Below, in pieces: positions 127 through 19,807 of a stretch of DNA of 28,250 nucleotides. This DNA is from a virus, in the IMG/VR virus record IMGVR_UViG_3300042541_001054, positions 1 through 28,250 of that record; one strand, given 5' to 3'. The notes under the pieces were generated by a model. The model had not been told where the DNA came from and did no database searches. It saw only the letters and a program-made list of their open reading frames with translations. A program made the translations under genes and the position numbers. How positions within the stretch are numbered: position 1 is the first letter of the stretch; each line of letters starts with the position of its first letter.

Positions 127-788
127 TTCGTCCCCAACCATCGGAAGTTTGGCGCTGCGGAGCGCTCGACGGCACCCAAAAATTGGTGCTGTTGGCGATT
201 CTTGACTACGGACGCATCGCCTACCCACGCCAGGCAGTGCTGGCGGCGAAGTGCGGGATCAGCCGTTCGACTTGCCAGCGCACAGTTGACTCACTACGTC
301 TAAGTGGCGTACTGACAACGACTACCCGCGGCAAGTCGCTTGTCTACCGCGTCAACCTGACAGGACAGGAGATGCCTCAATCTGACGCATCGAGAAGCAT
401 CAAATTGACGCCGGAGATGCATCAGAATGACGCTTCTATCGGCGTCAAATTGACTTCGGGATCCTATCTAGCCAATGGAACTCTCCCACCTAACCAGCAA
501 ACGGCTACCGCCGTCAGTGGGTGGGAGGTTCAAGATGAGATAGCAAACCGGATCAAGCAACGTGACCCGAGAGCGGACATCAAGAGCCACTGTTCGGTGT
601 GCCGACGTGTGTTGATCTCGTACGGCCTGAGCGACCGCGACGCAGTCGGAGCCTGGCGGCTCCTCTTGGAGCATTGGGCCCGTAGCGGCAATGACGCGTA
701 CAGCACACTTAAGTTCCACACCGAGAACCTGGGAGGCGCTCGTGACGTCGCCAAGGTTGTCTTACATCGCTTGCAGGGAGTCGCATGA
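123..788 (+). CDS. Winged-helix replication-initiator-like protein, allele A
   Basis: A 221-residue protein. Residues 17-75 form a winged helix-turn-helix; the HTH core runs from about Q37 to L64 (QAVLAAKCGISRSTCQRTV). A variable linker (about 80-130) precedes a well-conserved C-terminal domain (about 134-221) with a CSVC pair at 157-160. I choose TTG at 123 because allele B starts at the homologous residue with ATG at 16300, because GAGGAGG stands just upstream, and because the start overlaps the upstream TGA. The linker-coding DNA holds five regularly spaced near-palindromes. N-terminal DNA-binding domain, internal iterons and C-terminal partner domain follow the lambda O plan, so it probably opens the origin and recruits a host helicase or loader. 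A transcription regulator is the main alternative. Confidence 0.6.
   Translation: MIRPQPSEVWRCGALDGTQKLVLLAILDYGRIAYPRQAVLAAKCGISRSTCQRTVDSLRLSGVLTTTTRGKSLVYRVNLTGQEMPQSDASRSIKLTPEMHQNDASIGVKLTSGSYLANGTLPPNQQTATAVSGWEVQDEIANRIKQRDPRADIKSHCSVCRRVLISYGLSDRDAVGAWRLLLEHWARSGNDAYSTLKFHTENLGGARDVAKVVLHRLQGVA
351..454 (+). repeat. Iteron array inside initiator gene, candidate replication origin (allele A)
   Basis: Five 11-base elements, consensus RTCAANYTGAC, lie at 351-361, 376-386, 399-409, 421-431 and 444-454. Their centres are 25, 23, 22 and 23 bases apart, about two helical turns, so a bound protein would line up on one DNA face. TCA at positions 2-4 and TGAC at 8-11 are invariant. They sit in the part of the gene coding for the linker between the DNA-binding and C-terminal domains. 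Origin function is inferred by analogy with lambda ori within O. Confidence 0.55.
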
Positions 789-1027
789 GCCAACCACAGA
801 GCCTCGAAGATCAGATCCTCCAGCAAGTTCTTGTGATCCAAGCGCTACGCCTACGCATCGCACGCATGGAGTCGATTTACACCACACCACGAACCATCCG
901 ATCCACTGGGCAGAATGGGACAACCGAGGACACACGCCACCAGCGTGACACTATCGAGGAATACGGGCCCAGCACGCCACGTTGTGTCACGGATCAGGAA
1001 GTCGAACGCGCTGAGGATGACTCGTGA
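785..1027 (+). CDS. Small hypothetical protein (80 aa), allele A
   Basis: Not recognised. The ATG overlaps the previous stop (ATGA). The N-terminal half (about residues 5-30, LEDQILQQVLVIQALRLRI) is a short amphipathic, Leu/Ile-rich helix that could form a coiled coil. The rest is polar and probably disordered, ending in acidic residues. Allele B (16962-17207) is nearly identical except near the end, so it is under protein-level constraint. Its place just before the nuclease/terminase genes makes a small-terminase or replication-accessory role conceivable, but there is no DNA-binding motif to support it. Confidence 0.6.
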   Translation: MSQPQSLEDQILQQVLVIQALRLRIARMESIYTTPRTIRSTGQNGTTEDTRHQRDTIEEYGPSTPRCVTDQEVERAEDDS

Positions 1028-1512
1028 CCAACTCACGCATGAAGGGCAAGAACGGTGAGTTGGACGCCTGCCGTGCGCTGGAGAAGTTGTTCCCATTCAA
1101 GTGGGAACGTACTGCCCAACGCTATGGCAAAGGCAAAGCAGACATTGAAGCACAGTGCAGCTGGCAGATACACGTTGAAGTAAAACGCCGAAAGACAGGC
1201 TATTCGTACGTGTATGGGCGCTTGAAATCCGATCCACTCATTAGCAGTGGCAGCCTCTTGATATGCCGATTGAGTCGGCTCATGCAAGTCATGGACGATG
1301 GCATCTGTTTGCCCAATGTTGCACCACGTTGCGCTGGCCTTGAAGATGCCATGCTGCAAGCACGTACTGATGCAAGGGTAGGGTGGTTACCCATTGTCCT
1401 TGCCAGGCAGGATGACGAAGAGTGGCTATTAGCGTGGAGGGAAGAGGTAGATACGCGACTCATGGAAGAGGTGCGAACATGGCTAGGCGATGGCGATACG
1501 AAGGTGGTATAG
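1024..1512 (+). CDS. PD-(D/E)XK nuclease, Holliday-junction-resolvase-like, allele A
   Basis: A 162-residue protein with the compact PD-(D/E)XK layout: E12 (KGKNGELDA), D40 (GKGKADIE) and E52-x-K54 (HVEVKRR), which would bind metal and cut DNA. The family includes phage and archaeal junction resolvases and VRR-type nucleases. A role in resolving recombination or packaging intermediates is inferred from the position before HNH and TerL. The GTG start at 1024 overlaps the previous stop (GTGA); allele B has ATGA at the same place. The 3' end overlaps the HNH gene by 34 bases. Confidence 0.7.
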   Translation: MTNSRMKGKNGELDACRALEKLFPFKWERTAQRYGKGKADIEAQCSWQIHVEVKRRKTGYSYVYGRLKSDPLISSGSLLICRLSRLMQVMDDGICLPNVAPRCAGLEDAMLQARTDARVGWLPIVLARQDDEEWLLAWREEVDTRLMEEVRTWLGDGDTKVV

Positions 1513-1739
1513 GCAAACCTATCAGCATGATTAACACCATTCGCTCACGCGGTGGTACATGGACACGCATAGCCAAAGCACATAAGGCTGTGCATATGTG
1601 CTGTGCTGTATGTGGTGCAGTGGCTGACCTTGAGACAGATCACATCATTCCACTGCATCGCGGTGGCACGAATGAATGGCGAAATTTGCAGTCATTGTGC
1701 CGCACACATCACATTATCAAGACTACGGCTGAAATTTGA
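1479..1739 (+). CDS. HNH endonuclease next to terminase, allele A
   Basis: An 86-residue protein. Zinc-binding C42-x2-C45 and C74-x2-H77 frame the HNH core: D54-H55 (ETDHIIPLHRGG), N69 and the C74/H77 region. Small HNH proteins beside TerL stimulate terminase cleavage in HK97-type phages (established for HK97 gp74), so a packaging role is likelier than homing. I prefer ATG 1479 to an upstream in-frame start at 1422 because allele B also begins MARRWRYEGG. Bases 1531-1648 are identical to allele B although the neighbouring genes are diverged. Confidence 0.85.
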   Translation: MARRWRYEGGIGKPISMINTIRSRGGTWTRIAKAHKAVHMCCAVCGAVADLETDHIIPLHRGGTNEWRNLQSLCRTHHIIKTTAEI

Positions 1740-3565
1740 CCAGGCCCCGTCATAGGGCCGAGGGGCCTATACCCGCTAAGGCACCGCGGTGTGGATCCAC
1801 GAAGACAGACGCGCGTCGTAAACACCTGAAACGACCACCTTTATGCGCCGACCTAGCCGATGCCTACGCCGAGTCGATCGCCAGCGGCAGCGCCGTCGCC
1901 AATCTGCGAATCGTCGACTCATGCAAGCGCTACTTAGCCGAGCGCAAAGCGCCGGCGGCGCACCAGGTGTGGTGGGACGAGCCACGCGCCGAGGACGCCC
2001 GAGCGTTCGCCCGCAAGTGTGGCCAGGGCGTGGAAGAGGACGCCGGCAAACCACTGGAGTGGATGCCGTGGCAGTGCATGGTGGCAATGATCCTGCTCGC
2101 TCGCCGACGCGTGATCGCCAAGGTGAAGACCGACACGCCGGCGACCAAGGCGCTGCTGCTGGTGGTGGCGCGCGGCAACGGGAAGACCGAGTTCGCGGCA
2201 TCGATGATCATGGCAGCGATGCGCGACACCAGCACTAGCCTGGAGTTCTCAAGCGTGGCGCCGGATGGGCGCTTGGCGCAGAAGACCTTTGAGCGGATGC
2301 AGACCATGTGCCGCACACTGGCCCTAGATGACACGGACAAAGACGATAAGGGATGGACGTCCTCAGGTGGCTCGACGCCGGCGCATCCCGGCAGAGTGCG
2401 CCACGGTGGCAACCGGTACATCTCTTTGCCATGCACCGACCGTGCGCTTGACGGATTGACCACGCGCTTGATCGTCGCGGACGAGACAGCGCGCATGGAC
2501 AAGGCGTTCGGGCGCTTGCTCACCGGCCTTGCCAAGTTCGCTACCTCGCAACTGTTGGCGATCACCACGCCCGATCCGGAGCAGAAGACGCGCCCGATTT
2601 GGGGCTACTGGCAAGCGTGCGAGGCTGCAATCGCTGACGGAACGCCCTATCCGGCGGGCTGGTGGCCCATGATTTACGGTCTAGATGCCGACGATCAAGC
2701 CTCAGATCCTGCCGTATGGGCGAAGGCGCACCCAGGTTTGGGCGTCATTGTTGACCCAACGCAGTTGCAACTGGCCGCGCAGACGATGCTAAACACGGGT
2801 GATCCCGTGCAGATTGCCGAGTTTGAAACGCAGTTGGCGTGCAGATACCACGAGATTGCCACGACTGACATTGATCTTGCAGTGCTTGAGCGGCAAATGG
2901 TGGACTGCGATTGGGATCGCTTGCGCGGCGCGCCAGCGGTCATCGGTCTTGACTTGAGCCGCGGTGGTTATGGAAGTCAACTTGACTTGACGGCGCTCAC
3001 CATCATGGTGGTCGATGGCGGCATCATTCGTGCGCGAAACGTGTGCTGGTGGGCGGGTACGGACATCGCGCTCGACGAAAAGCGCTGCAAAAACCCGCTA
3101 CAGGTGTGGATTGAGGCCGGACATCTGCGCCGAATGCCTGGTGAATGGCAGGATATGAGCATTGTGGAGGCTGAAATTGAGCACTTAATGACGCTTTACG
3201 ACGTGCGAAAGATCGGCGTAGACCCGCATCCAGCGCAAGCGCGAGACATAAAGCGATGGCAGGATCGCGGCTGGCCCATCATTCCGGTCGATCAGAGCAT
3301 CCGAACGATGGCGCCGGCATGGAAACTGTGGGGCGACCTATTGAAGTCCAAGCAACTTTGCTACCAAATCGATCCGGTACTCGCGTCGGGACTAAACAAC
3401 GTGCGCCTAATCCGCGACAACGTCGGCAACACGCGACCAGTGAAGGGACGCAGCGCGGGCAACATGGACGTCATCGTGTCCGGCAACATGGCAGCGCTTC
3501 TCATGGAACATCACCAGGTGCGCGAGTCGACCGGACTCAGCACCAGCGCTTGTCCGATTGGTTGA
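1736..3565 (+). CDS. terL: Terminase large subunit, allele A
   Basis: A 609-residue packaging motor and nuclease. The N-terminal ATPase shows Walker A VARGNGKT at 144-151 and Walker B LIVADE at 245-250 (catalytic E250), with a coupling ITTPD motif near 276-280. The C-terminal RNase-H-like nuclease has candidate acidic residues D406 (GLDLSRGG), D496 (IGVDPHP) and D578 (NMDVIVSGN). Length and motif order fit the Terminase_1-type family that works with HK97-type portals. It starts with TTG overlapping the HNH stop (TTGA), conserved in allele B, which suggests translational coupling. No small terminase subunit is recognisable nearby. Bases 2556-2679 are identical to allele B within otherwise diverged sequence. 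Confidence 0.93.
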   Translation: MTRPRHRAEGPIPAKAPRCGSTKTDARRKHLKRPPLCADLADAYAESIASGSAVANLRIVDSCKRYLAERKAPAAHQVWWDEPRAEDARAFARKCGQGVEEDAGKPLEWMPWQCMVAMILLARRRVIAKVKTDTPATKALLLVVARGNGKTEFAASMIMAAMRDTSTSLEFSSVAPDGRLAQKTFERMQTMCRTLALDDTDKDDKGWTSSGGSTPAHPGRVRHGGNRYISLPCTDRALDGLTTRLIVADETARMDKAFGRLLTGLAKFATSQLLAITTPDPEQKTRPIWGYWQACEAAIADGTPYPAGWWPMIYGLDADDQASDPAVWAKAHPGLGVIVDPTQLQLAAQTMLNTGDPVQIAEFETQLACRYHEIATTDIDLAVLERQMVDCDWDRLRGAPAVIGLDLSRGGYGSQLDLTALTIMVVDGGIIRARNVCWWAGTDIALDEKRCKNPLQVWIEAGHLRRMPGEWQDMSIVEAEIEHLMTLYDVRKIGVDPHPAQARDIKRWQDRGWPIIPVDQSIRTMAPAWKLWGDLLKSKQLCYQIDPVLASGLNNVRLIRDNVGNTRPVKGRSAGNMDVIVSGNMAALLMEHHQVRESTGLSTSACPIG

Positions 3566-3568
3566 TCT

Positions 3569-3598
3569 CACGCAATGCCACGCAATGCCACGCACTAG
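3569..3598 (+). repeat. CACGCA direct repeats, 10-bp period
   Basis: CACGCAATGC occurs twice in tandem (3569-3578, 3579-3588), followed by CACGCACTAG (3589-3598). The word CACGCA returns at 3647 and 3668 inside the following 21-base repeats. This is the left end of a non-coding repeat block that begins right after the terL stop and is absent from copy B. Confidence 0.8.
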
Positions 3599-3632
3599 GA
3601 AAAACTAGGAAAAACTCGGAAAAACTCGGAAA
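3595..3632 (+). repeat. Helically phased A-tracts (predicted bent DNA)
   Basis: The 10-base unit CT(A/C)GGAAAAA is repeated at 3595, 3605 and 3615, with a partial fourth unit at 3625. Runs of five A fall at 3600-3604, 3610-3614 and 3620-3624, exactly one helical turn apart. This is the classic arrangement for intrinsic curvature, often found at origins, packaging sites and upstream of promoters. The array is present in copy A only. Confidence 0.8.
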
Positions 3633-3672
3633 GCGGTACGCAACTTCACGCAAGCGGTACGCAACTTCACGC
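3631..3672 (+). repeat. Two perfect 21-bp tandem repeats
   Basis: Bases 3631-3651 and 3652-3672 are identical 21-mers beginning AAGCGGTACG and ending CTTCACGC. Each holds a TTCAC word, the reverse complement of the GTGAA core in the next array. The second TTCAC (3666-3670) and the first GTGAA (3676-3680) form an inverted repeat with a 5-base gap. Confidence 0.85.
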
Positions 3673-3674
3673 AC

Positions 3675-3714
3675 TGTGAAGAGGTGTGAAATAGTGTGAA
3701 ATTCTGTGAAACGC
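3675..3714 (+). repeat. TGTGAA-N4 array, four units, 10-bp period
   Basis: TGTGAA recurs at 3675, 3685, 3695 and 3705 with variable 4-base spacers, so the conserved part is the motif rather than the whole unit. That is expected of protein-binding sites on one DNA face. The array lies about 30 bases upstream of a TTGACA box before the portal gene. It may be an activator or operator array, a terminase-binding site or a replication/partition site; the sequence does not decide. Confidence 0.75.
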
Positions 3715-3745
3715 TGTATTTAGATGCGAGGTCTGAAATAATCGC

Positions 3746-3774
3746 TTGACACGCTGAGGCACATTTGTTCCATG
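3746..3774 (+). promoter_or_regulatory. Possible promoter for the structural operon (copy A)
   Basis: TTGACA at 3746-3751 is a perfect sigma-70 -35 hexamer. The region 17 bases downstream (TCCATG) is a poor -10. The stretch from GTCTGAAATAATCGC to the portal start is conserved in copy B, where the rest of this gap is missing, which argues for function. CTGAG (3754) and CTCAG (3778) form a small inverted repeat reaching the GTG start. Upstream, 3715-3745 holds nothing else I recognise. Confidence 0.35.
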
Positions 3775-3781
3775 CATCTCA

Positions 3782-4942
3782 GTGAGCATCTTCGCACGAT
3801 TCTTCGGGTTCAAAAGCGGCGTAGTTGTCTATGCACGCCCGGAACCACTGGCAACGCCAGCGCCACAGCATTTACCCGCTGTCGTTCGTGCCATGAATCT
3901 CATCAGCACCGACTTGGCGCGGCTTCCGTTCTCGATCATTGACTCACAGGGCCAGGTTGTCGATTCGCCGATCACGCAATTGATGACGCGGGAAGCCTCG
4001 CGCTGGCAGTCGGGCTTTGAGTTCAGACGCTATTTGACTACGTGCGCGCTTGATTCGGGCAACGGTTTGGCACTCATTCGCCGCGATTCGTCGGGCACCG
4101 TCGCCGAATTGCAACCACTTCCGAGCGGAACGTCCACGGTTGAACTGACCGAAGAGGGTGTTCAGTACCGCTTGGGCGGGAATCTCCTCAAGGCAGACCA
4201 GGTGCTACACCTCGGCTGCTATCCGGATCCGCTGTCGCCGAGTTGGTATATGTCGCCGATGGACGCTTGCAAGTTCGCCATGGAACTGGCAGCAGACCAG
4301 GACGCGGCCCACAAGAGCCTGATCCGCACCGGCAGCACCGGCAAGGTTTCGATCTCTCACCCGGGCGCGATGTCCGATCAAACGGTTCAAGCCATCCGCG
4401 ACGCCTGGCAAACCATGCACGCAACCGCGGAGGGTGCATCGCGCCCGTTGATCCTGCGCGAGGGCATGAAGGCTGAGCGCATCAGCGCTGAATCAACCAC
4501 CACAAGTTTGGAGTCGCGCCGGTTCTCAATCCAAGAGATCGCCCGCGCATTCGGCGTACCGCCCGAAATGCTCTACCAGCAGGGCGGCGGGGCGCTGTCC
4601 TCACAATCAGAAACCGCACGCGCCTACGTTGACGGCGCGCTAGCCCAATGGGTGACAGCGTGGGAATCGGAGATCACGCGAAAACTCTGCGGGCCCGGCG
4701 AACACGCAAGGCTCGATACCGACGTCCTGCTCCGCGGCAATATGCGAGATGCCGGCATGGCGCTGTCGAAACTTGTCCTCGCCGGGATCCTCTCACCGAA
4801 CGACGGGCGCAAGCGAATGGGCCTCCCGCCTATTCAGGGCGAACAGTTCGACATTCCAAGTGTGTCCATGCCAGGCGGAATGAGCGCCATGCAAGGCGAC
4901 GGCGCCACGGAAAACATCGATGGAGGTGAAGACATTGCTTGA
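3782..4942 (+). CDS. Portal protein, HK97 family (copy A)
   Basis: A 386-residue portal forming the dodecameric DNA channel at the capsid vertex. Family hallmarks include an N-terminal AVVRAMNLISTDLARLPF helix (about 34-51), a central wing and clip, and the FSIQEIARAFGVPPEMLYQ motif (about 248-266) before a C-terminal helical region. It starts with GTG. There is no good Shine-Dalgarno, and the ATG ten bases upstream is out of frame. The first 66 codons differ from copy B at 12 sites, all synonymous; after base 3980 the two copies are identical. Confidence 0.93.
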   Translation: MSIFARFFGFKSGVVVYARPEPLATPAPQHLPAVVRAMNLISTDLARLPFSIIDSQGQVVDSPITQLMTREASRWQSGFEFRRYLTTCALDSGNGLALIRRDSSGTVAELQPLPSGTSTVELTEEGVQYRLGGNLLKADQVLHLGCYPDPLSPSWYMSPMDACKFAMELAADQDAAHKSLIRTGSTGKVSISHPGAMSDQTVQAIRDAWQTMHATAEGASRPLILREGMKAERISAESTTTSLESRRFSIQEIARAFGVPPEMLYQQGGGALSSQSETARAYVDGALAQWVTAWESEITRKLCGPGEHARLDTDVLLRGNMRDAGMALSKLVLAGILSPNDGRKRMGLPPIQGEQFDIPSVSMPGGMSAMQGDGATENIDGGEDIA

Positions 4943-5456
4943 AATCCGTACCGCCAAGATCAGTATGCAAGGCGACAAGATCGGCGGCTACGCCAGCGTC
5001 TACGACGCTCCGAGCCACCCGCTCACCGTGCGTGGCATCAACGGTGGCAAGCCATTTACTGAGAAGGTCGCCCGCGGCGCGTTCGACAACTCGCTCCGCT
5101 CCAACATCTCGCTGCTTGTCGGTCATGATTCGCGCGACCTCTTGGCAAATACCAAGAGCGGGCTGCTCCAGCTGAACAGCGACGCGCACGGTTTGGCGTT
5201 CGAAGTAACGCTCCCCGACACGCAGCGAGCAAAAGATATCCGAGCACTCGTGGACGCCAACGTCCTGAGCGAGATGTCATTCGGCTTCAACGTGATCTCA
5301 GATTCTTGGAGCGGCAACACACGCACACTCACCCAGGTGAGGCTATTGGAAGTCTCAATCGTAGAAAACGGCGCCTATCCGCAGACGAGCGCCGAAGCAC
5401 GACATCTTTCCTCGGGCTTAGCCCGTCTTCGTCTGCGTCTAAGGATGCCGCTATGA
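4935..5456 (+). CDS. HK97-type prohead protease (copy A)
   Basis: A serine protease (S78/U35 family) that trims capsid scaffolding during maturation. From the TTG start, the catalytic candidates are H64 (LLVGHDSR), S115 (LSEMSFGF) and E139 (LLEVSIVENGAY), the spacing seen in HK97 gp4. I prefer TTG 4935 because GGAGGTGA at 4922-4929 gives ideal spacing. An in-frame ATG at 4920 would add five residues but has no ribosome-binding site. It overlaps the portal end by 8 bases, and its stop overlaps the capsid ATG (ATGA). Confidence 0.9.
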   Translation: MLEIRTAKISMQGDKIGGYASVYDAPSHPLTVRGINGGKPFTEKVARGAFDNSLRSNISLLVGHDSRDLLANTKSGLLQLNSDAHGLAFEVTLPDTQRAKDIRALVDANVLSEMSFGFNVISDSWSGNTRTLTQVRLLEVSIVENGAYPQTSAEARHLSSGLARLRLRLRMPL

Positions 5457-6724
5457 AACTGTCCGAACTCTTTGAAAGCCGTAAGGCGCTCACCGCTGAG
5501 CGCGATTCCATTCTCGCACAAGATTCCCTCACCGTCGAGATCGAAGCTCGCGGCCATGAAGTCGCAAACGAACTCGCAACCGTTGAAGCCGAGATCCGTT
5601 CCGCGCAAATGCGCGAGCGTTTCGCTTCCTCAAGCGCCGTCGAGATCATCGCCAAGCGCGATATGGAACTCGGACGCGAAGAGCGCGACACCAAGAAGTA
5701 CCGCGACCAGTTCATCGGTTGGCTCAAGGGTGGCGCTGCACCTGAAGTGCGCGCACTAACGACCGCAACCACTCCCGCAACCGTTGCTGGCACCATCATG
5801 GTGCCTGCCGTTTACGAGACAGAGATTCTGAAGTTCCTCGATAGCCAAGATTTCATGCGTTCGTTGGCTGATTATCGCGGTGGAGTCACTGGCTACCCAT
5901 CGCTCCGTTACAACACGCAGACCAGCGCGGCCTACGGTGGCGGCACCGGTTCGTGGATCGCGGAAGGTGGCAACGCCGTTGTGAACGACATGGCACTCGC
6001 TGAGGTGCTCTTGCCGCCACGACTCTGCTCACCGACCACGCAAGTTTCGCAGACGCTCTTGCGCCAAGCGAATTTTGACGTGGAAGCCGAAGTCATGATG
6101 GATCTTCAGAAGAAGATTTCCAAGAATCAGGCCTTCGGGTTCATCGGAGGTATCGGTGGCACAGCGATGCCAACGGGCATCTTCGATCCTGCAACCACAA
6201 CTACTGGCGTTCGCACTGGTGCAACGGTTGGAGCAGGTAACACGCGAGCATTGAAGGTGACTGCTGCAACTTCAGACGCTGCCGTGACCATTGCGAACCT
6301 GACCAAGATGCGTTACGACATCTTGCCAGCGGCTTACTGGAATAGTCCGACCTGCGCCTGGATCATTCCGCAAGACGTTTACGCAGCGATCGCTGGCATT
6401 CTTGTAAACAATGTGCCGCTGTTTGTCCCTTCTGCTGATGCTGGCATCAGGAATGCAGCACCATTTACGCTCATGGGCCTCCCGGTCTACGTAACTCCGT
6501 ATGTCCCGGCTCTTATCACAACTTCGGCAGCGAAGACCGTGATGGCAGTGGTTGGAGACATCCGAGAGTCCTACAGTATTCGGGAGTGGGCAGGCATCGG
6601 CATGATCCGCGACGACATCACGCTGGCGACCACTGGCCAAGTGAAGTACACCGCGATGTCGTTCGCCAACGCGAACATCACCCGCGGCGATGCGCTCGTT
6701 CAACTGCGCGTCACCAACGTCTGA
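5453..6724 (+). CDS. Major capsid protein, HK97 fold (copy A)
   Basis: A 423-residue protein. Residues 1 to about 58 are a charged coiled coil (MKLSELFESRKALTAERDSI), the delta/scaffold domain that the upstream protease removes. After a linker (about 60-105) the HK97 core begins near TPATVAGTIMVPAVYETEI. The core carries SWIAEGG, an E-loop/A-domain pattern and a C-terminal region ending RGDALVQLRVTNV. ATG 5453 has AAGGA upstream and overlaps the protease stop. The long in-frame upstream extension to 5306 lies inside the protease gene and is rejected. Confidence 0.93.
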   Translation: MKLSELFESRKALTAERDSILAQDSLTVEIEARGHEVANELATVEAEIRSAQMRERFASSSAVEIIAKRDMELGREERDTKKYRDQFIGWLKGGAAPEVRALTTATTPATVAGTIMVPAVYETEILKFLDSQDFMRSLADYRGGVTGYPSLRYNTQTSAAYGGGTGSWIAEGGNAVVNDMALAEVLLPPRLCSPTTQVSQTLLRQANFDVEAEVMMDLQKKISKNQAFGFIGGIGGTAMPTGIFDPATTTTGVRTGATVGAGNTRALKVTAATSDAAVTIANLTKMRYDILPAAYWNSPTCAWIIPQDVYAAIAGILVNNVPLFVPSADAGIRNAAPFTLMGLPVYVTPYVPALITTSAAKTVMAVVGDIRESYSIREWAGIGMIRDDITLATTGQVKYTAMSFANANITRGDALVQLRVTNV

Positions 6725-6743
6725 TTCTGATCCTCTCATCCTT

Positions 6744-6775
6744 TAGGTGGGTGGGGCTTCGGCCCCACCTACCTA
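6744..6775 (+). terminator. 14-bp hairpin with TTCG tetraloop after capsid gene (copy A)
   Basis: TAGGTGGGTGGGGC (6744-6757), loop TTCG (6758-6761) and GCCCCACCTACCTA (6762-6775) form a 14-bp stem with one G-U pair and a very stable UUCG loop. No T-run follows, so it is not a classic intrinsic terminator. It lies in the only sizeable gap between capsid and connector genes. It may cap or stabilise the 3' end of capsid mRNA or lower downstream expression. Confidence 0.7.
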
Positions 6776-6787
6776 CAGCGAGGAACA

Positions 6788-7291
6788 ATGGCTTTAGACA
6801 TTGCAAAGTTCCGCAGTTGGGCCCGCATTCCTCACACGGAGGATGACCCGGCTATTGGCATTGCATGGGCAGCAGCCGTACGCGAACTGGAAGAGCGAAC
6901 CGGGTGGTGCGTGGAGTCGGTCACTAGGACGCAGTGGGTGCCCGCAGCGCCCTTGACGATTTACCGCGGTCTGTACCTCCGTTTGGAGCGCCAAGGCGAT
7001 CTGGCAGGAACTACGGTCACCTACAGCGATAGCGCGACGGTGCCGCTCACCGGCACGTGCTCAAAGATCCAAATCAATGGCCTGATCTACGTCGATATGG
7101 ACATCGACAATCTGACCTACCCAGTGACGCTGACCGTAACAGCAGGTAACGCGGCGCTCAATCCACTGCTAGAGATGGCGTTACTCCAGCGCGTGGCACA
7201 CCATGTGGCAAGCCGTGGCGATGACACCATCGCGCTCGACTCGACCTACTGGGACAGGGTGACATCAATGATGGGCAAAGGAATAGCGTAA
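6788..7291 (+). CDS. Head-tail connector, HK97 gp6-like (copy A)
   Basis: A 167-residue adaptor that binds the portal ring. The N-terminal region matches the family pattern: short helix FRSWARIP, acidic EDDPAIGIAWAAAVRELEERTG (about 19-40), then beta strands, and a C-terminal helix with LLEMALLQRVAHHV. The ATG is preceded by GAGGAA just after the hairpin. It is the first of four connector/completion genes in the standard siphovirus order. Confidence 0.8.
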   Translation: MALDIAKFRSWARIPHTEDDPAIGIAWAAAVRELEERTGWCVESVTRTQWVPAAPLTIYRGLYLRLERQGDLAGTTVTYSDSATVPLTGTCSKIQINGLIYVDMDIDNLTYPVTLTVTAGNAALNPLLEMALLQRVAHHVASRGDDTIALDSTYWDRVTSMMGKGIA

Positions 7292-7636
7292 GTGGCTGGG
7301 CACGTCCCATCCGGAATGCTGAGGCTTTCGATGACGGTACAGAATCCCGTGCGAACCGTCGACAGCGTCGGACAAGCCACTGTGGCATGGTTGAGTGTCG
7401 CTCAGATTGCTTGCCACATTGACTCAGCACGAACGAACGAAGTTGTAGACGATCTCGGCGTCAACACCCGCTCCGACTGGCGCATCCTGGCCGCCTGGCA
7501 TCCTGCCGTGACCACGAACAGCCGATTGCTTTACTTGGACAACGGCACCGAGCGCGTGTTCAACGTCCGCGCTTGCTTTGACCGTGACCAGAAGCGCCGA
7601 CGCTTGGAGATGGAAGCCACGGAGGTAACCGAATGA
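7292..7636 (+). CDS. Head-tail joining/stopper protein, SPP1 gp16-like (copy A)
   Basis: A 114-residue small beta-barrel protein of the head-completion type (Phage_H_T_join). It has AGHVPSGMLRLSMTVQNPV at the start, the VGQATVAWLSVAQIACHI strand pair and the closing FNVRACFDRDQKRRRLEM segment. It plugs the connector after packaging. GTG immediately follows the previous TAA, with AAAGGA upstream. It overlaps the next gene by ATGA. Confidence 0.8.
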   Translation: MAGHVPSGMLRLSMTVQNPVRTVDSVGQATVAWLSVAQIACHIDSARTNEVVDDLGVNTRSDWRILAAWHPAVTTNSRLLYLDNGTERVFNVRACFDRDQKRRRLEMEATEVTE

Positions 7637-8331
7637 CGGCTACCAAGATCACGATGAAGACGCAGTTTGTAGACGGCAATGTCCGCAAGGCGCTTGCACG
7701 TCTTGGGCCCAAGGTTGCAGAGAACGTCATGAAGCGCTCAATGCGCAAAGCATTGCAGCCAGTGCGCACCGCGCTGACTCGGACTTGGTTGTCTGCGAGT
7801 TACCGTGGATACCCATGGAGCCGCCAAGACATTGCCAACGCAACTATGGTCGACGTACGCCGAGCTGGCGGTAAAGCCTCTTCAGGAGTTGCAGGGCGCG
7901 TAGGCGTCATGTACGGCAAAAAGGCGGGCAACTCCAGTGGCCGCCAAAAGATTTGGCACTTGCTTGAAGGTGGATTTCGGCACTACGCCAAGGGATCCAA
8001 GGCGTACGCAAACTTCAGCAAGGACGCCAAGGCAGAGCAAGTGAACTACAAGGCGATCATCGCCGCCAAGCGCCCAGCGGCACTAACTGGGCCACGATCA
8101 GAGCGCGCCGGGAAACTCCGCGCCGTCTTCGCCGCAGCACGCGAGGCAGCGCCTACGTTCGTCGCAGAGCGCTCCGGACGCACTGAACAGCGAAAGACCG
8201 CCACAGCGAAGCAGATCCCCGGGGCGTGGCGTTCTCGGGCCGTGGCGTCGCAAATGATTCCACAGGTGACAAAGAACCTACGCGACTACATCCTCCAAGC
8301 GTGCAAGGAGGCTTTACGTGCCGGTAAGTAG
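7633..8331 (+). CDS. HK97 gp10-like tail/neck protein (copy A)
   Basis: A 232-residue basic protein. Its N-terminus (VRKALARLGPKVAENVMKRSMRKALQ pattern, about 17-42) and the KIWHLLEGGFRHYAKGSK segment (about 115-132) fit the HK97 gp10 family of neck/tail-completion proteins. The C-terminal half is an Ala/Arg/Lys-rich helical extension, longer than the usual 130-150 residues. The ATG overlaps the preceding stop; the 3' end overlaps the next gene by 14 bases. Confidence 0.75.
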   Translation: MTATKITMKTQFVDGNVRKALARLGPKVAENVMKRSMRKALQPVRTALTRTWLSASYRGYPWSRQDIANATMVDVRRAGGKASSGVAGRVGVMYGKKAGNSSGRQKIWHLLEGGFRHYAKGSKAYANFSKDAKAEQVNYKAIIAAKRPAALTGPRSERAGKLRAVFAAAREAAPTFVAERSGRTEQRKTATAKQIPGAWRSRAVASQMIPQVTKNLRDYILQACKEALRAGK

Positions 8332-8728
8332 ATCGCTCGAAAACATCACGAAAGCGCTGTACTCGTATTTGACTGGAGAGCTGACAAGAGCGGAACTCTC
8401 GCCGCGCTGGCGTCGCCAGGGTGATCCGCTCCCTTACGTTGTTTACGAGTTTACCTCGGCCGCGTGGGTACAGACCACGAGCGAAGTCACCAACATGGTG
8501 ACCTTGTCGGTGAACTTCTCTTGCGTCGGTGCAACCGTAGCCGACTCCCTTGAGGTAGCGGATGAGATCACCGCAGCCTTTTACCAAACGGTTCTGGAAA
8601 ACAGGATCACGTTTCAGATGGTTGATATCAACATGAGAACCTTGGACGCTGTACCTGATGACGGTACCGGCGATGCCGAACGAATTATCGTAGTTACCAC
8701 AACATTCCTTACCCACGACGAAAGTTAA
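8318..8728 (+). CDS. Tail terminator/completion protein, DUF3168-like (copy A)
   Basis: A 136-residue protein. The N-terminal helix ENITKALYSYL, then PLPYVVYEF, a strand region VTLSVNFSCVG and SLEVADEITAAFYQTVL fit the tail-terminator family, which caps the tail tube and joins it to the neck. GTG at 8318 with a perfect AAGGAGG at 8305-8311 fixes the start inside the previous gene. Confidence 0.75.
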   Translation: MPVSRSLENITKALYSYLTGELTRAELSPRWRRQGDPLPYVVYEFTSAAWVQTTSEVTNMVTLSVNFSCVGATVADSLEVADEITAAFYQTVLENRITFQMVDINMRTLDAVPDDGTGDAERIIVVTTTFLTHDES

Positions 8729-8731
8729 ACG

Positions 8732-9109
8732 ATGCCAACGACATACACAGCGGGCTACGGCGGGACACTCACGATTAACTCGGTAACTATTCCGGTACAG
8801 AACGTGACGATTGACCTATCGCGCCAAGAGATTGACATCACCACCACGCTTGACCTCACCACGCTGGCAATGGCTGGCCGTGTTACGCGCAAAATCACTT
8901 GCACGGCAATGGCAACAATCGCCGCGGAAACGGCGCTCACGCTGCTAATCAATACCGCAACGGACACCAAGACCGTGGTGGGATGGACAGATGGCAACTC
9001 GGGCACGTCGTACAGCATCACGTGCATGTTGAACAGTGCCAGCCGTTCGTACGACGGGCAGGGCGCGGCGACTATCAACTTCAGTTTCTCGGAAGCGAAG
9101 CCAGCCTAA
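8732..9109 (+). CDS. Major tail (tube) protein (copy A)
   Basis: A 125-residue, almost all-beta protein: Thr/Ile-rich strands such as GGTLTINSVTIPVQNVTIDL, a central VTRKITCTAMATI strand and a closing GAATINFSFSEAKPA. Size, fold and position between tail terminator and tape measure mark it as the tube subunit, at the small end of the family. Its stop overlaps the next start (TAATG). Confidence 0.75.
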   Translation: MPTTYTAGYGGTLTINSVTIPVQNVTIDLSRQEIDITTTLDLTTLAMAGRVTRKITCTAMATIAAETALTLLINTATDTKTVVGWTDGNSGTSYSITCMLNSASRSYDGQGAATINFSFSEAKPA

Positions 9110-9381
9110 TGCCAATTGGAACCGAATATCTAGGCGACGGCTGGCGCGATGCCGACATCGAAGGACTGCCTCCACTCCAGGTGCGCCGGCCAGTGATGCG
9201 CGACATTGCCGGCGGCGGCCAGTACTGGTGGATTGCTTGCGTGCGTTGCGCCGACGGTACGCCGTTGCTTGCTGAAGGCGTAGCCGCTGCCGATCTACGC
9301 GTGGAAGTCGGTAACGCCATCATCGCGGAGGTAATGAAAGAGCGCCCTATTCAAGCGCCGAAAGGCGCATCTGGAGGATGA
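9109..9381 (+). CDS. Putative tail assembly chaperone, first gene (copy A)
   Basis: A 90-residue protein between tail tube and tape measure, the place of lambda gpG-type chaperones. Visible: an acidic N-terminus (GTEYLGDGWRDADIEGLPPL), a YWWIACVRCADG strand and a C-terminal helix. No domain match is certain. The next ORF lies in the -1 frame and overlaps its stop (ATGA), as expected of a G/T pair, but I found no canonical slippery heptamer. The long upstream in-frame extension to 8899 lies inside the tube gene and is rejected. Confidence 0.6.
   Translation: MPIGTEYLGDGWRDADIEGLPPLQVRRPVMRDIAGGGQYWWIACVRCADGTPLLAEGVAAADLRVEVGNAIIAEVMKERPIQAPKGASGG
9355..9368 (+). promoter_or_regulatory. GNRA-loop hairpin before the 48-aa ORF (copy A)
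   Basis: GCGCC-GAAA-GGCGC is a perfect 5-bp stem with a GAAA tetraloop, ending nine bases before the ATG at 9378. GGAGG lies between hairpin and start. It may tune translational coupling or pause ribosomes for frameshifting. Confidence 0.45.
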
Positions 9382-9524
9382 CTCCAGCAGCCCGAATGGA
9401 TATGCCAGTCGGGCTGATGAGTGAGGCGACGCCGGAAGAACGGATTGAAAGTCTGCTTATAACGATTGCTTGCGCGCTCACAAGCGCACCACCTCACAGG
9501 ATTGCACCATGGCTAATGACTTAA
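9378..9524 (+). CDS. Small ORF (48 aa), possible second tail-chaperone segment (copy A)
   Basis: MTPAARMDMPVGLMSEATP begins a 48-residue ORF overlapping the previous stop (ATGA), with GGAGG upstream and its end 16 bases inside the tape-measure gene. It fits the chain of overlaps exactly and bridges an otherwise empty 127 bases. Content: PEERIESLL helix and a hydrophobic LLITIACAL stretch. It is in the -1 frame relative to the upstream gene, like lambda T relative to G. Function is not established. Confidence 0.5.
   Translation: MTPAARMDMPVGLMSEATPEERIESLLITIACALTSAPPHRIAPWLMT
9388..9416 (+). promoter_or_regulatory. Inverted repeat just after the 48-aa ORF start (copy A)
   Basis: CAGCCCGA (9388-9395) and TCGGGCTG (9409-9416) give an 8-bp stem with a 13-base loop, starting ten bases after the ATG. 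Together with the GNRA hairpin it brackets the start site. Confidence 0.45.
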
Positions 9525-10135
9525 AGGCATCGGTAAGCATCACAGCGGATACGAGCGGACTGATCTCCGGCGTGAATGGTGCCATGGAAAAGATCAACCG
9601 CATCAGCGCCAGTAGCACTGCCATGGCTGGCATGATGGGCGCACAGAAGGTGCTGCAACTTGCTCAGCAAATGTACACGGCTATTTCGGATCGCTCTGAG
9701 CATCTATCGAAACTTGCGCACACGTTCTCGCCTGAAGCGATGACGAGCGCCGCCAATCTTTCACAGGCTCAATTGCGATCGGATATGGCGGTCGGTCAAG
9801 CCATGGGCCCGGCACAGGCGGGCATTGACCGAGCCAAGCAGGACGCCATAGCCGAAGAGACTGCCAGCACTCTTCAGAACGCAAAGCAAATCGGCGAAGG
9901 GATGATCGTCCTCAACGCCATTTGGAACCAAACGAAACTTATCGCCACGGAAAGCGCCGACGCCACACTTATGGCGCTCGGTTCATTGAATCAGATGCCG
10001 GAGATGGCGGCAGCCGCTGTTGCAAACCCAGTCGAAACTGCGACCGGATCAATACTCGGCGTAAGCGCTGGGCCGCTCCTGCAAGCCATTGGCAGCACAC
10101 TTGAAGCCATGTTCGCAAAGGTAAAGGGAGACTAA
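9509..10135 (+). CDS. Tape-measure-like protein, very short (copy A)
   Basis: A 208-residue, almost wholly helical, Ala/Met-rich protein. The N-terminus (ASVSITADTSGLISGVNGAM) is the usual tape-measure opening, followed by MEKINRISASSTAMAGMMGA and long heptad-like helices. Position after tube and chaperone-like genes agrees. Most tape measures exceed 600 residues. At about 1.5 angstrom per residue this one implies a tail near 30 nm. I choose ATG 9509; the upstream extension to 9470 has no ribosome-binding site. Confidence 0.65.
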   Translation: MANDLKASVSITADTSGLISGVNGAMEKINRISASSTAMAGMMGAQKVLQLAQQMYTAISDRSEHLSKLAHTFSPEAMTSAANLSQAQLRSDMAVGQAMGPAQAGIDRAKQDAIAEETASTLQNAKQIGEGMIVLNAIWNQTKLIATESADATLMALGSLNQMPEMAAAAVANPVETATGSILGVSAGPLLQAIGSTLEAMFAKVKGD

Positions 10136-11148
10136 TGGGAGCGCTCAAGATCGTTAAACACGCCAGTGGCCCACAGTACAAGGTGCAAAGCCCCGGGCAA
10201 CCGTTCACCATGACGGAGCATTACGTTGTTTCGTGGGTACCAACGAGCCCGGAAGACGTTCAATCTTGCCCGGAAGATATTGCGATCATCGTCGCTGCAT
10301 CAGAAACTGGCGCGGGCGGCTTGAAGATCCCGAAGGTACAAGAGCGGTACGTCGGTTGCGACGCCAACGCATCGTTCCTCGTCTGCGAATCGGTCGATTG
10401 GCGCGTTATGCCAGGTGCGCTGAAGACTTGGATGGTTACCGCGAACTGGTCAAGCCTGATGGAGTTTGTGTACAACGCCACACTCCCCGAGCCATGGACG
10501 CGCATTACGCGCACCAGTTCTATGAGGCAGATGCCCATATGGCGAATCGATGCCGCGATACCTACTGGGGCTTACACATACCCGCCAACAACTGCTGCGG
10601 GCGACATCGGCGGAACAAAGGTAGATATTGGTGGACAGCCTGCAAATCGGTTTGTACAGCAGATGCAAATCATTTGCGAGTTCTACTACGACCGTACGTT
10701 CACGCTTGGGCCCGATGACGAGATTGCCGCAGAGCCTGGCCCATTCTTCAGCGGCTGGCTCGGCACGCGCAATTCGGAAGAGTTCCTCGGCTATGACCCG
10801 GGGCAGATCCTTTGCAACGGCATCAGCATCTCGCCAGTGAACGATCAGATTTACATTATGCAGTTCAAGTTCTTGTTTGATTGGCTGTCGTTCTTTGAGC
10901 AGCGCCCAGCACCAAACACTGGTGGCGCGTCATTCCTTGCCGCGGCGGCTACCAATTTTCTTGGAGTTCCATACAGACAGTCCAGCTTGGTTTCGTGGTA
11001 CCAACCGTACCCGGATCTTGAGGATCTGAAACTCATGTTCCCGGCGGCTGTGTACGACGCGTTCCTGACCGCATTGCCAGCCGTCAACACGTGCGCCACA
11101 CCGGGACGCAGTCTCGCCGATCGTCAATTCGATTTCCCTGCTTCATGA
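10135..11148 (+). CDS. Putative distal-tail/baseplate structural protein (copy A)
   Basis: A 337-residue protein, not recognised at family level. It is rich in Trp, Tyr and Pro, with mixed strands, an MPIWRIDAAIP segment (about 131-141), a DIGGTKVDIGG turn (about 156-166) and a helix-poor C-terminus. It directly follows the tape measure (TAATG overlap, GGGAG upstream), where distal-tail or hub proteins normally sit, so a tail-tip role is inferred from position only. Confidence 0.6.
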   Translation: MGALKIVKHASGPQYKVQSPGQPFTMTEHYVVSWVPTSPEDVQSCPEDIAIIVAASETGAGGLKIPKVQERYVGCDANASFLVCESVDWRVMPGALKTWMVTANWSSLMEFVYNATLPEPWTRITRTSSMRQMPIWRIDAAIPTGAYTYPPTTAAGDIGGTKVDIGGQPANRFVQQMQIICEFYYDRTFTLGPDDEIAAEPGPFFSGWLGTRNSEEFLGYDPGQILCNGISISPVNDQIYIMQFKFLFDWLSFFEQRPAPNTGGASFLAAAATNFLGVPYRQSSLVSWYQPYPDLEDLKLMFPAAVYDAFLTALPAVNTCATPGRSLADRQFDFPAS

Positions 11149-11663
11149 GTAACCAGCGTCCAATCTTCAACAACGGTCTGTACGGGAAAGCCAACCGTAC
11201 GGTTATGAACGCATTCATGGACTCAGCGGACACGATCGCCGCAAATCAGGGCGCTATTGAGTGGGCGTACCGCGCATCGATGCCAGAGCCGTTTGCCACG
11301 CGCACGTTCCTTGCACGTATCCAAACTGCGACGGTCATTACTGCAAATTGCAGATGGTCTTACGCGGGCACCGAGGCCGTGCTACTGTCCGCTTCGCCTT
11401 GGCATGAGATTGTGACAGGCAGTAATTACGATTTTGCGGGCGCACTCAACCTACGCGAGTTGTTTAACACGAGCGGCACGGACATTGACGGTATGGACAT
11501 TTCAAGCCCGGCGTCTACTGTCGGACCAGTTGGATCGGCTTACGTGAGCGGAGCATGGGGCACCACTGGCCTCGAAGCGCTTGTAGTCATGACAATGAGT
11601 TACACGAAAACGGGCGCAGTGTCGTATTACTTCGATCGACCTAATCCAATCAGGTGCACCTAA
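11145..11663 (+). CDS. Putative minor tail protein (copy A)
   Basis: A 172-residue protein beginning MSNQRPIFNNGLYGKANRTV at the ATGA overlap. An N-terminal helical part (about 15-45) is followed by beta-rich, Thr/Ser/Gly-rich sequence ending SYYFDRPNPIRCT. No family recognised. Context (tail-tip cluster) suggests a minor tail or baseplate component. The apparent N-terminal extension from 11091 lies within the previous gene. Confidence 0.6.
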   Translation: MSNQRPIFNNGLYGKANRTVMNAFMDSADTIAANQGAIEWAYRASMPEPFATRTFLARIQTATVITANCRWSYAGTEAVLLSASPWHEIVTGSNYDFAGALNLRELFNTSGTDIDGMDISSPASTVGPVGSAYVSGAWGTTGLEALVVMTMSYTKTGAVSYYFDRPNPIRCT

Positions 11664-12010
11664 TGGCCAACCTCACGCTCGTTACTCCAATTCCGCCACA
11701 AGTCATCTGCAAGGGTGAAGTATTCGCAATCTCGATGCACGTCCACGATGACGGCTCAAACTTCAACTGGACGAACTTCACGCCCGTCGGCAAGATCACC
11801 GTCGGCACGATCACCATTGCAGCTAGCACCGCGACGGTCATTAACGCTGGCGGCGGAACGGCCACCGTGTCCTGGACTGTGGCGCAGACGCTGACCGTAG
11901 ACGCCAATTCGTGGGGCACCATCGTCCTTTACGCAGACCCGACATCCGGCAGCGAAAATCGGCACATCGCGACCATCTTCGCACGCATAACAGCAGAAAG
12001 CATTCCGTAA
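11663..12010 (+). CDS. Small beta-rich tail protein (copy A)
   Basis: A 115-residue protein starting MANLTLVTPIPPQVICKGEV at a TAATG overlap. It reads as one Ig-like or BppU-N-like beta sandwich: strands with FAISMHVHDDG, a FNWTNFTPVGKITVG turn and WGTIVLYADP. Lying just before the adhesin, it may anchor that protein to the tail tip; this is inference. Confidence 0.55.
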   Translation: MANLTLVTPIPPQVICKGEVFAISMHVHDDGSNFNWTNFTPVGKITVGTITIAASTATVINAGGGTATVSWTVAQTLTVDANSWGTIVLYADPTSGSENRHIATIFARITAESIP

Positions 12011-12811
12011 ATGTACACCTCAATGATGCGACGCGCCCTTTTCGGAACGGGTAGCGCAGGCAGCGTTACTGCTGACCTATTAGTAGTCGCTGGCGGCGGC
12101 GGTGGTGGTGAAACGGGCGGAGGCGGTGGTGGCGCCGGAGGAGCAAGAACATTTACGCAAGTTATATCGGCTGGTTCTTACACCGTCACTATCGGCGCGG
12201 GAGGAGCGGCTAGCGCTAGTGGTTCAAATAGTGTGTTTGATAGCACTACGTCTACTGGCGGTGGCCGCGGTGGGTTTGCTGGCAATGAGAACGCCGCAAA
12301 CGGCGGAAGCGGTGGCGGCGCACGCGGTACTGGAACGGCTGGAACTGGCATTTCTGGACAAGGCAACGCAGGCGGAACGGCTATCAATGCAAACGCTTTT
12401 CCCAATGGCGGCGGTGGTGGCGCTGGAGCAGTCGGTTCGAACGCTCCATCAAATACTGTGGGTGGCGCTGGCGGCGCTGGCTTGCTGTCTTTCATCAGTG
12501 GATCAGCAACGTATTACGGCGGCGGCGGTGGTGGTGGGTGCTACGGAGGAAACGGAACCGGAGGTGCTGGTGGTAATGGTGGCGGAGGAACTGGTGGCAA
12601 TTTCGCTACTTCATCTACTAGCGGTACAGCAAACACAGGCGGCGGCGGTGGCGGCAGGGGCGGAAACAATGTCGGAACATCACTGGGAGGATCTGGAATT
12701 GTCATTGTGTCGTATCCAGGCTCATCAAGAGGAACGGGCGGAACAATCACGACTTCGGGCGGCAACACCATCCATACATTCACGGCTAGTGGAACGTTGG
12801 TGATCTCATGA
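12011..12811 (+). CDS. Glycine-rich tail adhesin (receptor-binding candidate), copy A
   Basis: A 266-residue protein dominated by poly-Gly blocks separated by short hydrophobic strands, from about residue 30 to 230. It opens with DLLVVAGGGGGG, has SYTVTIGAGG and closes with GIVIVSYPGSSRGTGGTI and IHTFTASGTLVIS. This is the Gly-rich adhesin pattern of phage tail tips (compare the polyglycine-II sandwich of phage S16 gp38), where the variable loops contact the host receptor. ATG follows the previous TAA directly. The GGC/GGT repeats make it prone to slippage and recombination. Confidence 0.75.
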   Translation: MYTSMMRRALFGTGSAGSVTADLLVVAGGGGGGETGGGGGGAGGARTFTQVISAGSYTVTIGAGGAASASGSNSVFDSTTSTGGGRGGFAGNENAANGGSGGGARGTGTAGTGISGQGNAGGTAINANAFPNGGGGGAGAVGSNAPSNTVGGAGGAGLLSFISGSATYYGGGGGGGCYGGNGTGGAGGNGGGGTGGNFATSSTSGTANTGGGGGGRGGNNVGTSLGGSGIVIVSYPGSSRGTGGTITTSGGNTIHTFTASGTLVIS

Positions 12812-15066: not shown

Positions 15067-15845
15067 ACGAACTAACTGCCACGGATGGCATCAACCCGGG
15101 CGCTATCGTCAAGCGCAACGAGGAAGTGTGCCGCATCGTCGGGCCCATCGTCCGCGCCAAGTACACGCAAGTAATTCAGGGCCGCAACTACCTCACCGTG
15201 CAGGGCGCCCAGGCGATCGCCTCATCGCTCGGCTACACCTCAGGCACTGCCAGCGTTCGCCACGTCGACCCGACGGAAAGCGTGGCTGGATACTGGGAAG
15301 CGACCTGCACGGTGATGTTGAATGGCGTCGTAGTGGGCTCGGGCATTGGCTCGGTCTTCGACGACGAGCGCCCGTGGAATACGCGTCCGCAGTTCGCCAG
15401 GCAAATGATGGCGCAGACCCGCGCTACCGGTCGGGCGCTTAAGGGCGTGATGGGGTGGGCGTTTGCAGCGCTCGACTACGAGGGCAGCATCGCTGAGGAA
15501 ATGCCGGAGGAAGCCACGAGGATGCCTCAGGACGCGCCCGCGCCTCGCAAGGCACTCGCTGCGCCCTCAAAGGCGTCGAGGCCGGCTCAAGTCAAGCCTG
15601 AGCCTAAAGGCGACCGCCTCCAAGTACGCGGCGTTTGTGTCGGAGTTGATCCAAAGACGGCAAAATCGGGAAAGGAATACTGGCGCGTAGGGCTCGAAGC
15701 CAACGGCGTCGAGTGGTTTACCTCGTTCTCGGCGGTGGATGCAGACATCATCGGCAAGTTGATCGCCTTGCAGCTCAAGCCATGGCAAGATGGTTTCCTG
15801 ATCGTGGACGTCCAGGTGGTGGTGGAAGAGGAGGTGCCGTTTTGA
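15063..15845 (+). CDS. Putative ssDNA-binding/annealing protein
   Basis: A 260-residue protein in two parts. Residues 1 to about 147 carry a conserved block: IVGPIVRAKYTQVIQGRNYL, DDERPWNTRPQFARQMMAQT and RATGRALKGVMGWAFAALDY ending EEMP. The Q-T-R-A-x-G-R-A-L motif recalls phage single-strand annealing and ssDNA-binding proteins. An Ala/Pro linker (148-184) leads to an OB-fold-like domain (185-255, DRLQVRGVCVGVD ... KEYWRVGLEA) and an acidic tail, as in SSBs. It probably coats or anneals DNA during replication. No family assignment is certain. The next gene starts on its stop codon (TTGA). Confidence 0.55.
   Translation: MNELTATDGINPGAIVKRNEEVCRIVGPIVRAKYTQVIQGRNYLTVQGAQAIASSLGYTSGTASVRHVDPTESVAGYWEATCTVMLNGVVVGSGIGSVFDDERPWNTRPQFARQMMAQTRATGRALKGVMGWAFAALDYEGSIAEEMPEEATRMPQDAPAPRKALAAPSKASRPAQVKPEPKGDRLQVRGVCVGVDPKTAKSGKEYWRVGLEANGVEWFTSFSAVDADIIGKLIALQLKPWQDGFLIVDVQVVVEEEVPF
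15720..15845 (+). repeat. 126-bp exact repeat of window bases 1-126
   Basis: The last 126 bases of the ssDNA-binding-like gene are identical at 1-126 and 15720-15845, an offset of 15719. After the shared TTTTGA the copies part: allele A goes straight into the initiator gene, allele B into an extra nuclease gene. Confidence 0.95.
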
Positions 15846-16303: not shown

Positions 16304-16965
16304 CCCGTCCTCAACCATCGGAAGTTTGGCGCTGCGGAGCTCTTGACGGCACCCAAAAATTGGTGCTGTTGGCCATTCTTGACTACGGACGCCTGGCGTA
16401 CCCTCGCCAGGCAGTGCTGGCAGCGAAGTGCGGCATTAGCAAATCGACTTGCCAGCGCACTGTTGACGGACTACGCGCAAGTGGCGTCTTGACAACGACT
16501 ACCAAGGGCAAGGCGCTTTCCTATCGCGTCAACTTGACAGGGCAGGAGATACCTCAATCTGACGTTTCACGAAACGTCAATCTGACGTCGGAGAAGAGTC
16601 AATTTGACGTTTCTAGCGAAGTCAAATTGACGTCGGGATCCTATCTAGCCAAGTTAACTAGTCCACCTAACCAGGGAAACGCTACCGCGTTCAACGGGTG
16701 GGAGGTTCAAGATGACATGGCAAACCGGATCAAGCAACGTGACCCGAGAGCGGACATCAAGAGCCACTGTTCGGTATGCCGGCGCGTACTCATCTCGCAC
16801 GGTCTGAGCGACCGTGACGCACTCGGAGCCTGGCGCTTGCTCTTGGAGCATTGGGCCCGTAGCGGCAACGACGCATACTCGACATTGAAGTTCCACACAG
16901 AGAACCTGGGAGGCGCACGTGACGTCGCCAAGGTTGTCTTACACCGATTGCAGGGAGTCGCATGA
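16300..16965 (+). CDS. Winged-helix replication-initiator-like protein, allele B
   Basis: 221 residues, the same length as allele A. The winged helix (17-75) and C-terminal domain (about 134-221) are nearly unchanged, while the linker (about 82-133) has many substitutions (for example QSDVSRNVNLTSEKSQFDVS). The ATG overlaps the nuclease stop, with GGAGG eight bases upstream. Conserved ends around a variable middle that still keeps its DNA sites argue that the protein recognises those sites and that the linker itself is tolerant. Confidence 0.6.
   Translation: MTRPQPSEVWRCGALDGTQKLVLLAILDYGRLAYPRQAVLAAKCGISKSTCQRTVDGLRASGVLTTTTKGKALSYRVNLTGQEIPQSDVSRNVNLTSEKSQFDVSSEVKLTSGSYLAKLTSPPNQGNATAFNGWEVQDDMANRIKQRDPRADIKSHCSVCRRVLISHGLSDRDALGAWRLLLEHWARSGNDAYSTLKFHTENLGGARDVAKVVLHRLQGVA
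16528..16631 (+). repeat. Iteron array inside initiator gene, candidate origin (allele B)
   Basis: Elements at 16528-16538, 16553-16563, 16576-16586, 16598-16608 and 16621-16631. Three are perfect 11-base hyphenated palindromes (GTCAACTTGAC, GTCAATTTGAC, GTCAAATTGAC). Centre spacing is 25, 23, 22 and 23, identical to allele A although the bases between them differ. The downstream TATCTAGCCAAGTTAACTAG stretch is somewhat AT-rich and could be the unwinding element. Confidence 0.6.
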
Positions 16966-17207
16966 GCCAACCACAGAGCCTTGAAGATCAGATCCTCCAG
17001 CAAGTGCTTGTGATCCAAGCGCTACGGCTACGCATTGCGCGGATGGAGTCGATTTACACCACGCCACGAACCATCCGATCCACTGGGCAGAATGGGACAA
17101 CCGAGGACACGCGCCATCAGCGTGACACTATCGAGGAATACGGCCCCATTACGCCTCGTTGTGTCACGGATCAGGAAGTCGATCAAGCGGAAGATGACGG
17201 AGCATGA
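16962..17207 (+). CDS. Small hypothetical protein (81 aa), allele B
   Basis: Same protein as 785-1027 apart from GPITPRC and the last residues (VDQAEDDGA). ATGA overlaps join it to genes on both sides. No function recognised; a helical N-terminal third precedes a polar tail. Confidence 0.6.
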   Translation: MSQPQSLEDQILQQVLVIQALRLRIARMESIYTTPRTIRSTGQNGTTEDTRHQRDTIEEYGPITPRCVTDQEVDQAEDDGA

Positions 17208-19748: not shown

Positions 19749-19771
19749 GGTGGCAAGTCTGAAATAATCGC

Positions 19772-19800: not shown

Positions 19801-19807
19801 CATCTCA

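Follow-up and report, generated by a model that had tools for sequence, protein, structure and literature searches.

A hypervariable noncoding slot with exchanged inserts lies between terL and the portal gene in a family of small tailed phages

Intercistronic stem-loops can set differential mRNA stability, and the sites bound by protein p4 of phage phi29 contain A-tracts. For the region of the phi29 late promoter A3, at the early/late boundary, a multi-site nucleoprotein complex with p4 and p6 is described, which controls the structural operon (PMC10899789, passages on this region). With regard to DNA ends, end repair leaves a gap at 3' cohesive ends and assemblers tend to set such ends at contig limits, and the PhageTerm table lists the HK97 termini as 2047/2036 (PMC5557969, parts on termini). 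Here, we analyzed a block of phased repeats between terL and the portal gene of an uncultured environmental phage. In this family of tailed phages with genomes of around 16 kb, the terL/portal junction forms a hypervariable noncoding slot, and the block is one of its alleles. No published description of such a slot was found in a literature search, in which entries were mostly judged as listed.

The window, the whole stretch of 28,250 bases that was analyzed, is a single IMG/VR record, IMGVR_UViG_3300042541_001054. Bases 1-126 are identical to 15720-15845, the contig thus meeting the same 126-base stretch twice; positions 129-3563 and 16306-19746 (up to terL) are 84% identical, and positions 3731-12224 and 19757-28250 (after terL) are 99.8% identical. 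The relatives are contigs of approximately 15.8 to 17.2 kb, some of which are closed with a 127-base end overlap, while others are linear. Based on the repeated stretch, the two levels of identity and the size of the relatives, the window is most simply explained as an assembly path that runs about 1.8 times round a tailed-phage genome of around 16 kb, via two strains, referred to as copies A and B. It had been proposed that copy B is a sister strain; copy B is probably not a second genome lying beside the first, as the contig re-enters the identical 126-base stretch and then follows a second strain. The genes are arranged in the order O-like replication protein with internal repeats, RusA-like resolvase, HNH, terL, portal, protease, capsid, connector and tail genes. 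On the plus strand of copy A, terL (phrog_9) occupies 1736-3565, with its stop at 3565, and the portal gene (phrog_12) 3782-4942, with its start at 3782; HNH and terL are adjacent. In a search for isolated relatives, all terL matches in the phage records were below 60% identity. Repeats of 22-23 bp within the O-like replication gene (368-454 and 16554-16633) differ between strains A and B and are candidate origin iterons.

The slot is in the array state in copy A, where it spans 216 bp (3566-3781, no strand assigned), and empty in copy B, where it spans 59 bp (19749-19807, no strand assigned); as noted before, TTGACA is present in both. The block of 146 bases contains, in agreement with the original prediction, four repeat families with a period of 10 or 21 bp, all of which are given for the plus strand: the outer left units CACGCAATGC with a 10-bp period (3569-3595, units at 3569-3594), the phased A-tract units ACT(A/C)GGAAAA, which are likewise spaced by 10 bp and predicted to be bent (3594-3632), the inner left units, which are two perfect 21-mers AAGCGGTACGCAACTTCACGC (3631-3672), and a right arm of four TGTGAA-N4 units with a 10-bp period (3675-3714), whose GTGAA words start 70, 60, 50 and 40 bp upstream of TTGACA. 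The centre of the inverted arrangement, TTCAC-GCACT-GTGAA, is located at 3666-3680 (no strand assigned). At a lag of 10, the block matches itself at 87 of 136 positions, compared with 34.7 (sd 6.0) on average when every 146-base stretch of the window is scored and no more than 54 outside the block, and the match fraction of 0.64 lies above that of all 2000 dinucleotide shuffles, none of which exceeded 0.43. DNA bending had also been predicted, and a wedge model yields a predicted bend of 73 degrees for the A-tract section 3590-3640 (shuffles 24 +/- 12; 0/500 as high); the 69 degrees calculated for the entire block are less remarkable, as 7.4% of the shuffles are equally high. When relatives were searched for the block, related arrays were recovered in five further IMG/VR contigs (L011, L022, L068, L069 and L102), so that the repeat block is real and not an assembly error peculiar to this contig. 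Comparison of the array with phage and plasmid records gave no match.

Relatives were fetched with terL and portal as the best 80 of 258, the best 80 of 201 and the best 80 of 283 matches, and the slot tally therefore covers near relatives. The resulting 105 sequences comprise 103 contigs and copies A and B; 98 of them cover the gap, and seven were dropped as the gap is not covered. The slot is empty (57-59 bp) in 64 of the 98 near-relative gaps, 16 contain a 93-bp form, 12 an unrelated insert of 225-227 bp, and 6 an array, which occurs in five alleles of 140, 158, 158, 216 and 217 bp. The 93-bp form resembles the array by eye, but homology of the two was dropped, with a local alignment score of 17 versus a shuffle maximum of 22. 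The terL tree (84 rows) implies 15 or more changes of slot state and the portal tree (96 rows) 16 or more; for the array alone, four or more are needed on either tree. Identical portal proteins occur with different slot states. As seen from the scatter of the states over the trees, the slot is exchanged among the empty, array, hairpin and 93-bp states, and the suggestion that the array was recently gained or lost is supported.

Two short elements in front of the portal gene are kept throughout. TTGACA (3746-3751, plus strand) is present in 98/98 near-relative gaps and resembles a -35 element; no -10 hexamer was recognised downstream of it in this phage family. It is followed by a GGC-N4-TTGTTCCATGC block (3758-3775, plus strand), whose family form is GGC-N4-T(T/C)GT(T/C)(C/T)CATGC and which is found with small changes in all 98 gaps. 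Both TTGACA and the downstream block are also retained in L161, a distant relative with a portal identity of 66%. The stretch 3746-3775 is noncoding, yet it is kept in 98/98 near relatives. GTGAA (or GTGAC) starts 40, 50 and 60 bp upstream of TTGACA in all five array alleles and 70 bp upstream in four of them; this fixed spacing derives from one conserved block and should be taken as about a single observation. The length of the left arm is variable, with steps of 10 or 11 bp, or of 48 bp across the A-tracts, and its unit sequences are unlike between alleles; unrelated repeat families share the 10-11-bp step.

The slot most likely acts in cis on the expression of the portal and structural genes, and we tentatively favor the possibility that it is an exchangeable cassette that regulates the portal operon in cis and acts as a phased DNA array. 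The phased repeats would align several putative half-sites for a DNA-binding protein along one side of the helix, in 10-bp steps upstream of TTGACA, and an A-tract section with a predicted bend is present in two alleles; from this position, a host or core phage DNA-binding protein could activate or repress initiation at a putative promoter. The proposal that the block is an activator array agrees with the constant distance to the invariant TTGACA and with a parallel in an unrelated phage group described below; the lack of a -10 box speaks against it. Within 3400-4000, no intrinsic terminator was found, and the sole promoter-like site for sigma-70 is unrelated and on the minus strand, and was discarded. 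A scan of 8 genomes revealed no further occurrence of the TTGACA-linked motif. No ORF cluster is common to the array carriers and missing elsewhere, as judged by eye from a listing in which some genomes are partial, and no candidate for a dedicated regulator was thus recognised. The phased DNA array also has to be weighed against the 64 of 98 near relatives that manage without any insert, and against the RNA-like character of the alternative insert in the slot and the better folding of non-empty alleles on the plus strand. Compared with the A3/p4/p6 region, as far as it is covered by the phi29 passages cited above, the array is similar in that a multi-site complex, proposed here, would control a structural operon. 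However, phi29 encodes its own regulators, whereas none was recognised in the present phage; the repeats of the two systems are unrelated, and most relatives lack the array.

A pattern scan for three TGTGAA-N4 units retrieved 49 contigs, 45 of which are outside the family. For 32 distinct arrays outside the family, promoters were examined, and flanking proteins were typed at around a dozen loci; arrays near packaging genes are therefore to be taken as examples rather than as an enrichment. In contig L239 (terL phrog_9, portal phrog_12), three TTCACA-N4 units are located 10, 20 and 30 bp upstream of TTGACA-17-TACAGT in the terL-portal gap, and its sister contigs carry TATGCA, TGTGCA and TATGCG at 10-bp steps before TTGACA-17-TATATT in the same gap; in L177, the units of the scan are positioned just upstream of a portal frame. 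The L239 group resembles the locus studied here in that 10-bp-phased hexamers, which vary among sister contigs, precede TTGACA in the terL-portal gap. It differs in that it is another phage group with shorter arrays and a clear -10 box, followed by a hairpin with a T run. In L239 and L246-L272, which form an unrelated group, the terL-portal gap is highly variable and contains promoters, phased hexamers and hairpins with T runs. A promoter-like site beside the L245 array overlaps a terminator-like hairpin and was discarded. Phased or inverted TGTGAA/TTCACA arrays are also found beside primase-helicase genes of the unrelated phages L182, L215, L218 and L220; these may resemble the origin iterons of phage P4.

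The main competing explanation, which we regard as possible but somewhat less likely, is that the slot holds swappable RNA hairpins between two co-transcribed genes, which would set mRNA processing or stability and lead to unequal amounts of terL and portal. In the array form, TTCACGC units would pair with GUGUGAA units to give a long interrupted stem, and in other strains a multi-hairpin RNA would be formed at the same place. In 20/20 distinct inserts, folding is better on the plus than on the minus strand; many of these inserts are related, and base composition explains part of the effect. Several arrays fold well, with z scores of -4.0 to -4.3 for L011/L190 and, with flank, -4.3 for L011, -3.9 for L068 and -2.2 for L102, whereas L069 and the array of the window with its flank are unremarkable (about -0.8; the array of the window alone reaches -2.1). 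Co-evolution of the two array arms was looked for and not shown: pairing of own arms ranked 24 of 120 for the hairpin and 7 of 120 for the duplex, which is slightly but not clearly above swapped arms, and the minus strand behaved similarly. Moreover, an RNA would need neither the A-tracts nor the 10-bp step. The likeness to intercistronic stem-loops is that putative hairpins lie between co-directional genes, but here unrelated inserts are swapped at one place; no direct published match for this parallel was among the entries listed by the literature search.

A case for RNA is made by the 225-bp insert, whose nine distinct alleles yield a consensus of 59 pairs with 99.1% of the cells paired. 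Six pairs are changed on both sides, which 0/500 shuffles reach, and all one-sided changes result in G-U pairs on the plus strand. On account of this consensus and its two-sided changes, the insert is a good candidate for a new structured RNA. Searches against Rfam gave no match in the slot (six sources at E up to 1; four sources at E up to 5), nor was the insert matched in phage records; within the viral collection, a 24-base core of the insert occurs in 12 contigs, each of which belongs to this phage family. The insert of 225-227 bp, located at 9492-9688 in L188 and also present in L046, L054, L055, L058, L064, L065, L076 and L092, contains several hairpins as well as GNRA-like loops. In phages with this insert, terL ends with GGGTAG, and a short TTGG-like repeat is found at the right end of the insert.

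It is doubtful that the array is a near-neutral minisatellite, produced by slippage and recombination in a tolerated gap and devoid of function. Such an origin would be in keeping with the 64 of 98 near relatives that lack any insert and with the varying copy number and unit composition. However, other junctions of the structural module are mostly tight and near-invariant (for example, -4 in 26/26 and -1 in 22/22), 5/5 alleles retain the right-arm units at an unchanged distance from TTGACA, and the same period recurs in several unrelated unit families.

The array was also considered as a packaging element, that is, a cos or pac site or a terminase-binding array, since it adjoins terL; in addition, TGTGAA arrays are located near terS/terL in some unrelated phages (L173, L183 and L218). 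Packaged DNA ends, mapped via contig ends, lie elsewhere. Among the best 80 terL relatives, 46 contigs have an end within terL or shortly before it, of which 32 (32/80) begin at the same base, 1797; the array carriers L211, L212 and L213 likewise begin at 1797. Three near-full-length contigs end at 1784, and two other right ends are at 1694 and 1801. The gap of 12 bases between 1784 and 1797 corresponds to the loss expected when 3' cohesive ends undergo end repair; the DNA termini are thus probably at 1784/1797, with a 12-nt 3' cos at 1785-1796 (no strand assigned), deduced from contig ends and end-repair logic. The putative cos is positioned inside CACCGCGGTGTGGATCCAC (1782-1800), between HNH and the conserved terL portion; with terL opened at 1736, it falls within the reading frame of this gene. 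It is similar to the HK97-type 3' cos, as far as the PhageTerm table shows, in the short gap between right and left termini and in the adjacency of HNH and terL in the window; the comparison differs in that it concerns 1785-1796 and not the array, and that the 12 nt are inferred here. As the putative cos is approximately 1.77 kb away, the array is not the cut site. No termini fall at the array, which occupies 6 of the 98 near-relative gaps rather than being family-wide, and the proposal of a cut site is contradicted by these ends, including those of array carriers, and by the 92/98 gaps without an array. A role as cut site is thus largely refuted, and a packaging element of any of these kinds seems highly improbable. 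Equally improbable are putative replication, incompatibility or partition iterons, for which the short, phased repeats and the TGTGAA arrays adjoining primase genes in some unrelated phages (L182, L215, L218 and L220) would speak, but separate repeats (368-454) are present within the O-like replication gene itself and most near relatives possess the same gene set without the array.

Taken together, a real noncoding slot, in which unrelated inserts are often exchanged, is located beside an invariant pre-portal element and away from the DNA ends, and the array probably tunes virion gene expression. It is conceivable, and proposed here with reserve, that the terL/portal junction is a noncoding exchange locus, the counterpart of a swappable accessory-gene slot, at which unrelated cis-acting modules, namely a phased DNA array, a new multi-hairpin RNA class, a small palindrome or no insert at all, replace one another as alleles, thereby retuning the expression of the packaging motor relative to virion proteins. 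Phage diversity is usually told via genes; here, near-fixed gene neighbors are parted by often-exchanged noncoding inserts, including one with the behavior of an undescribed structured RNA, which is a candidate for this class. Furthermore, the analysis of contig ends leads to the likely DNA termini of an uncultured environmental phage family. If the inserts set virion-gene expression, the slot would represent a compact natural allele series for the balance between motor and structural proteins in a very small phage.
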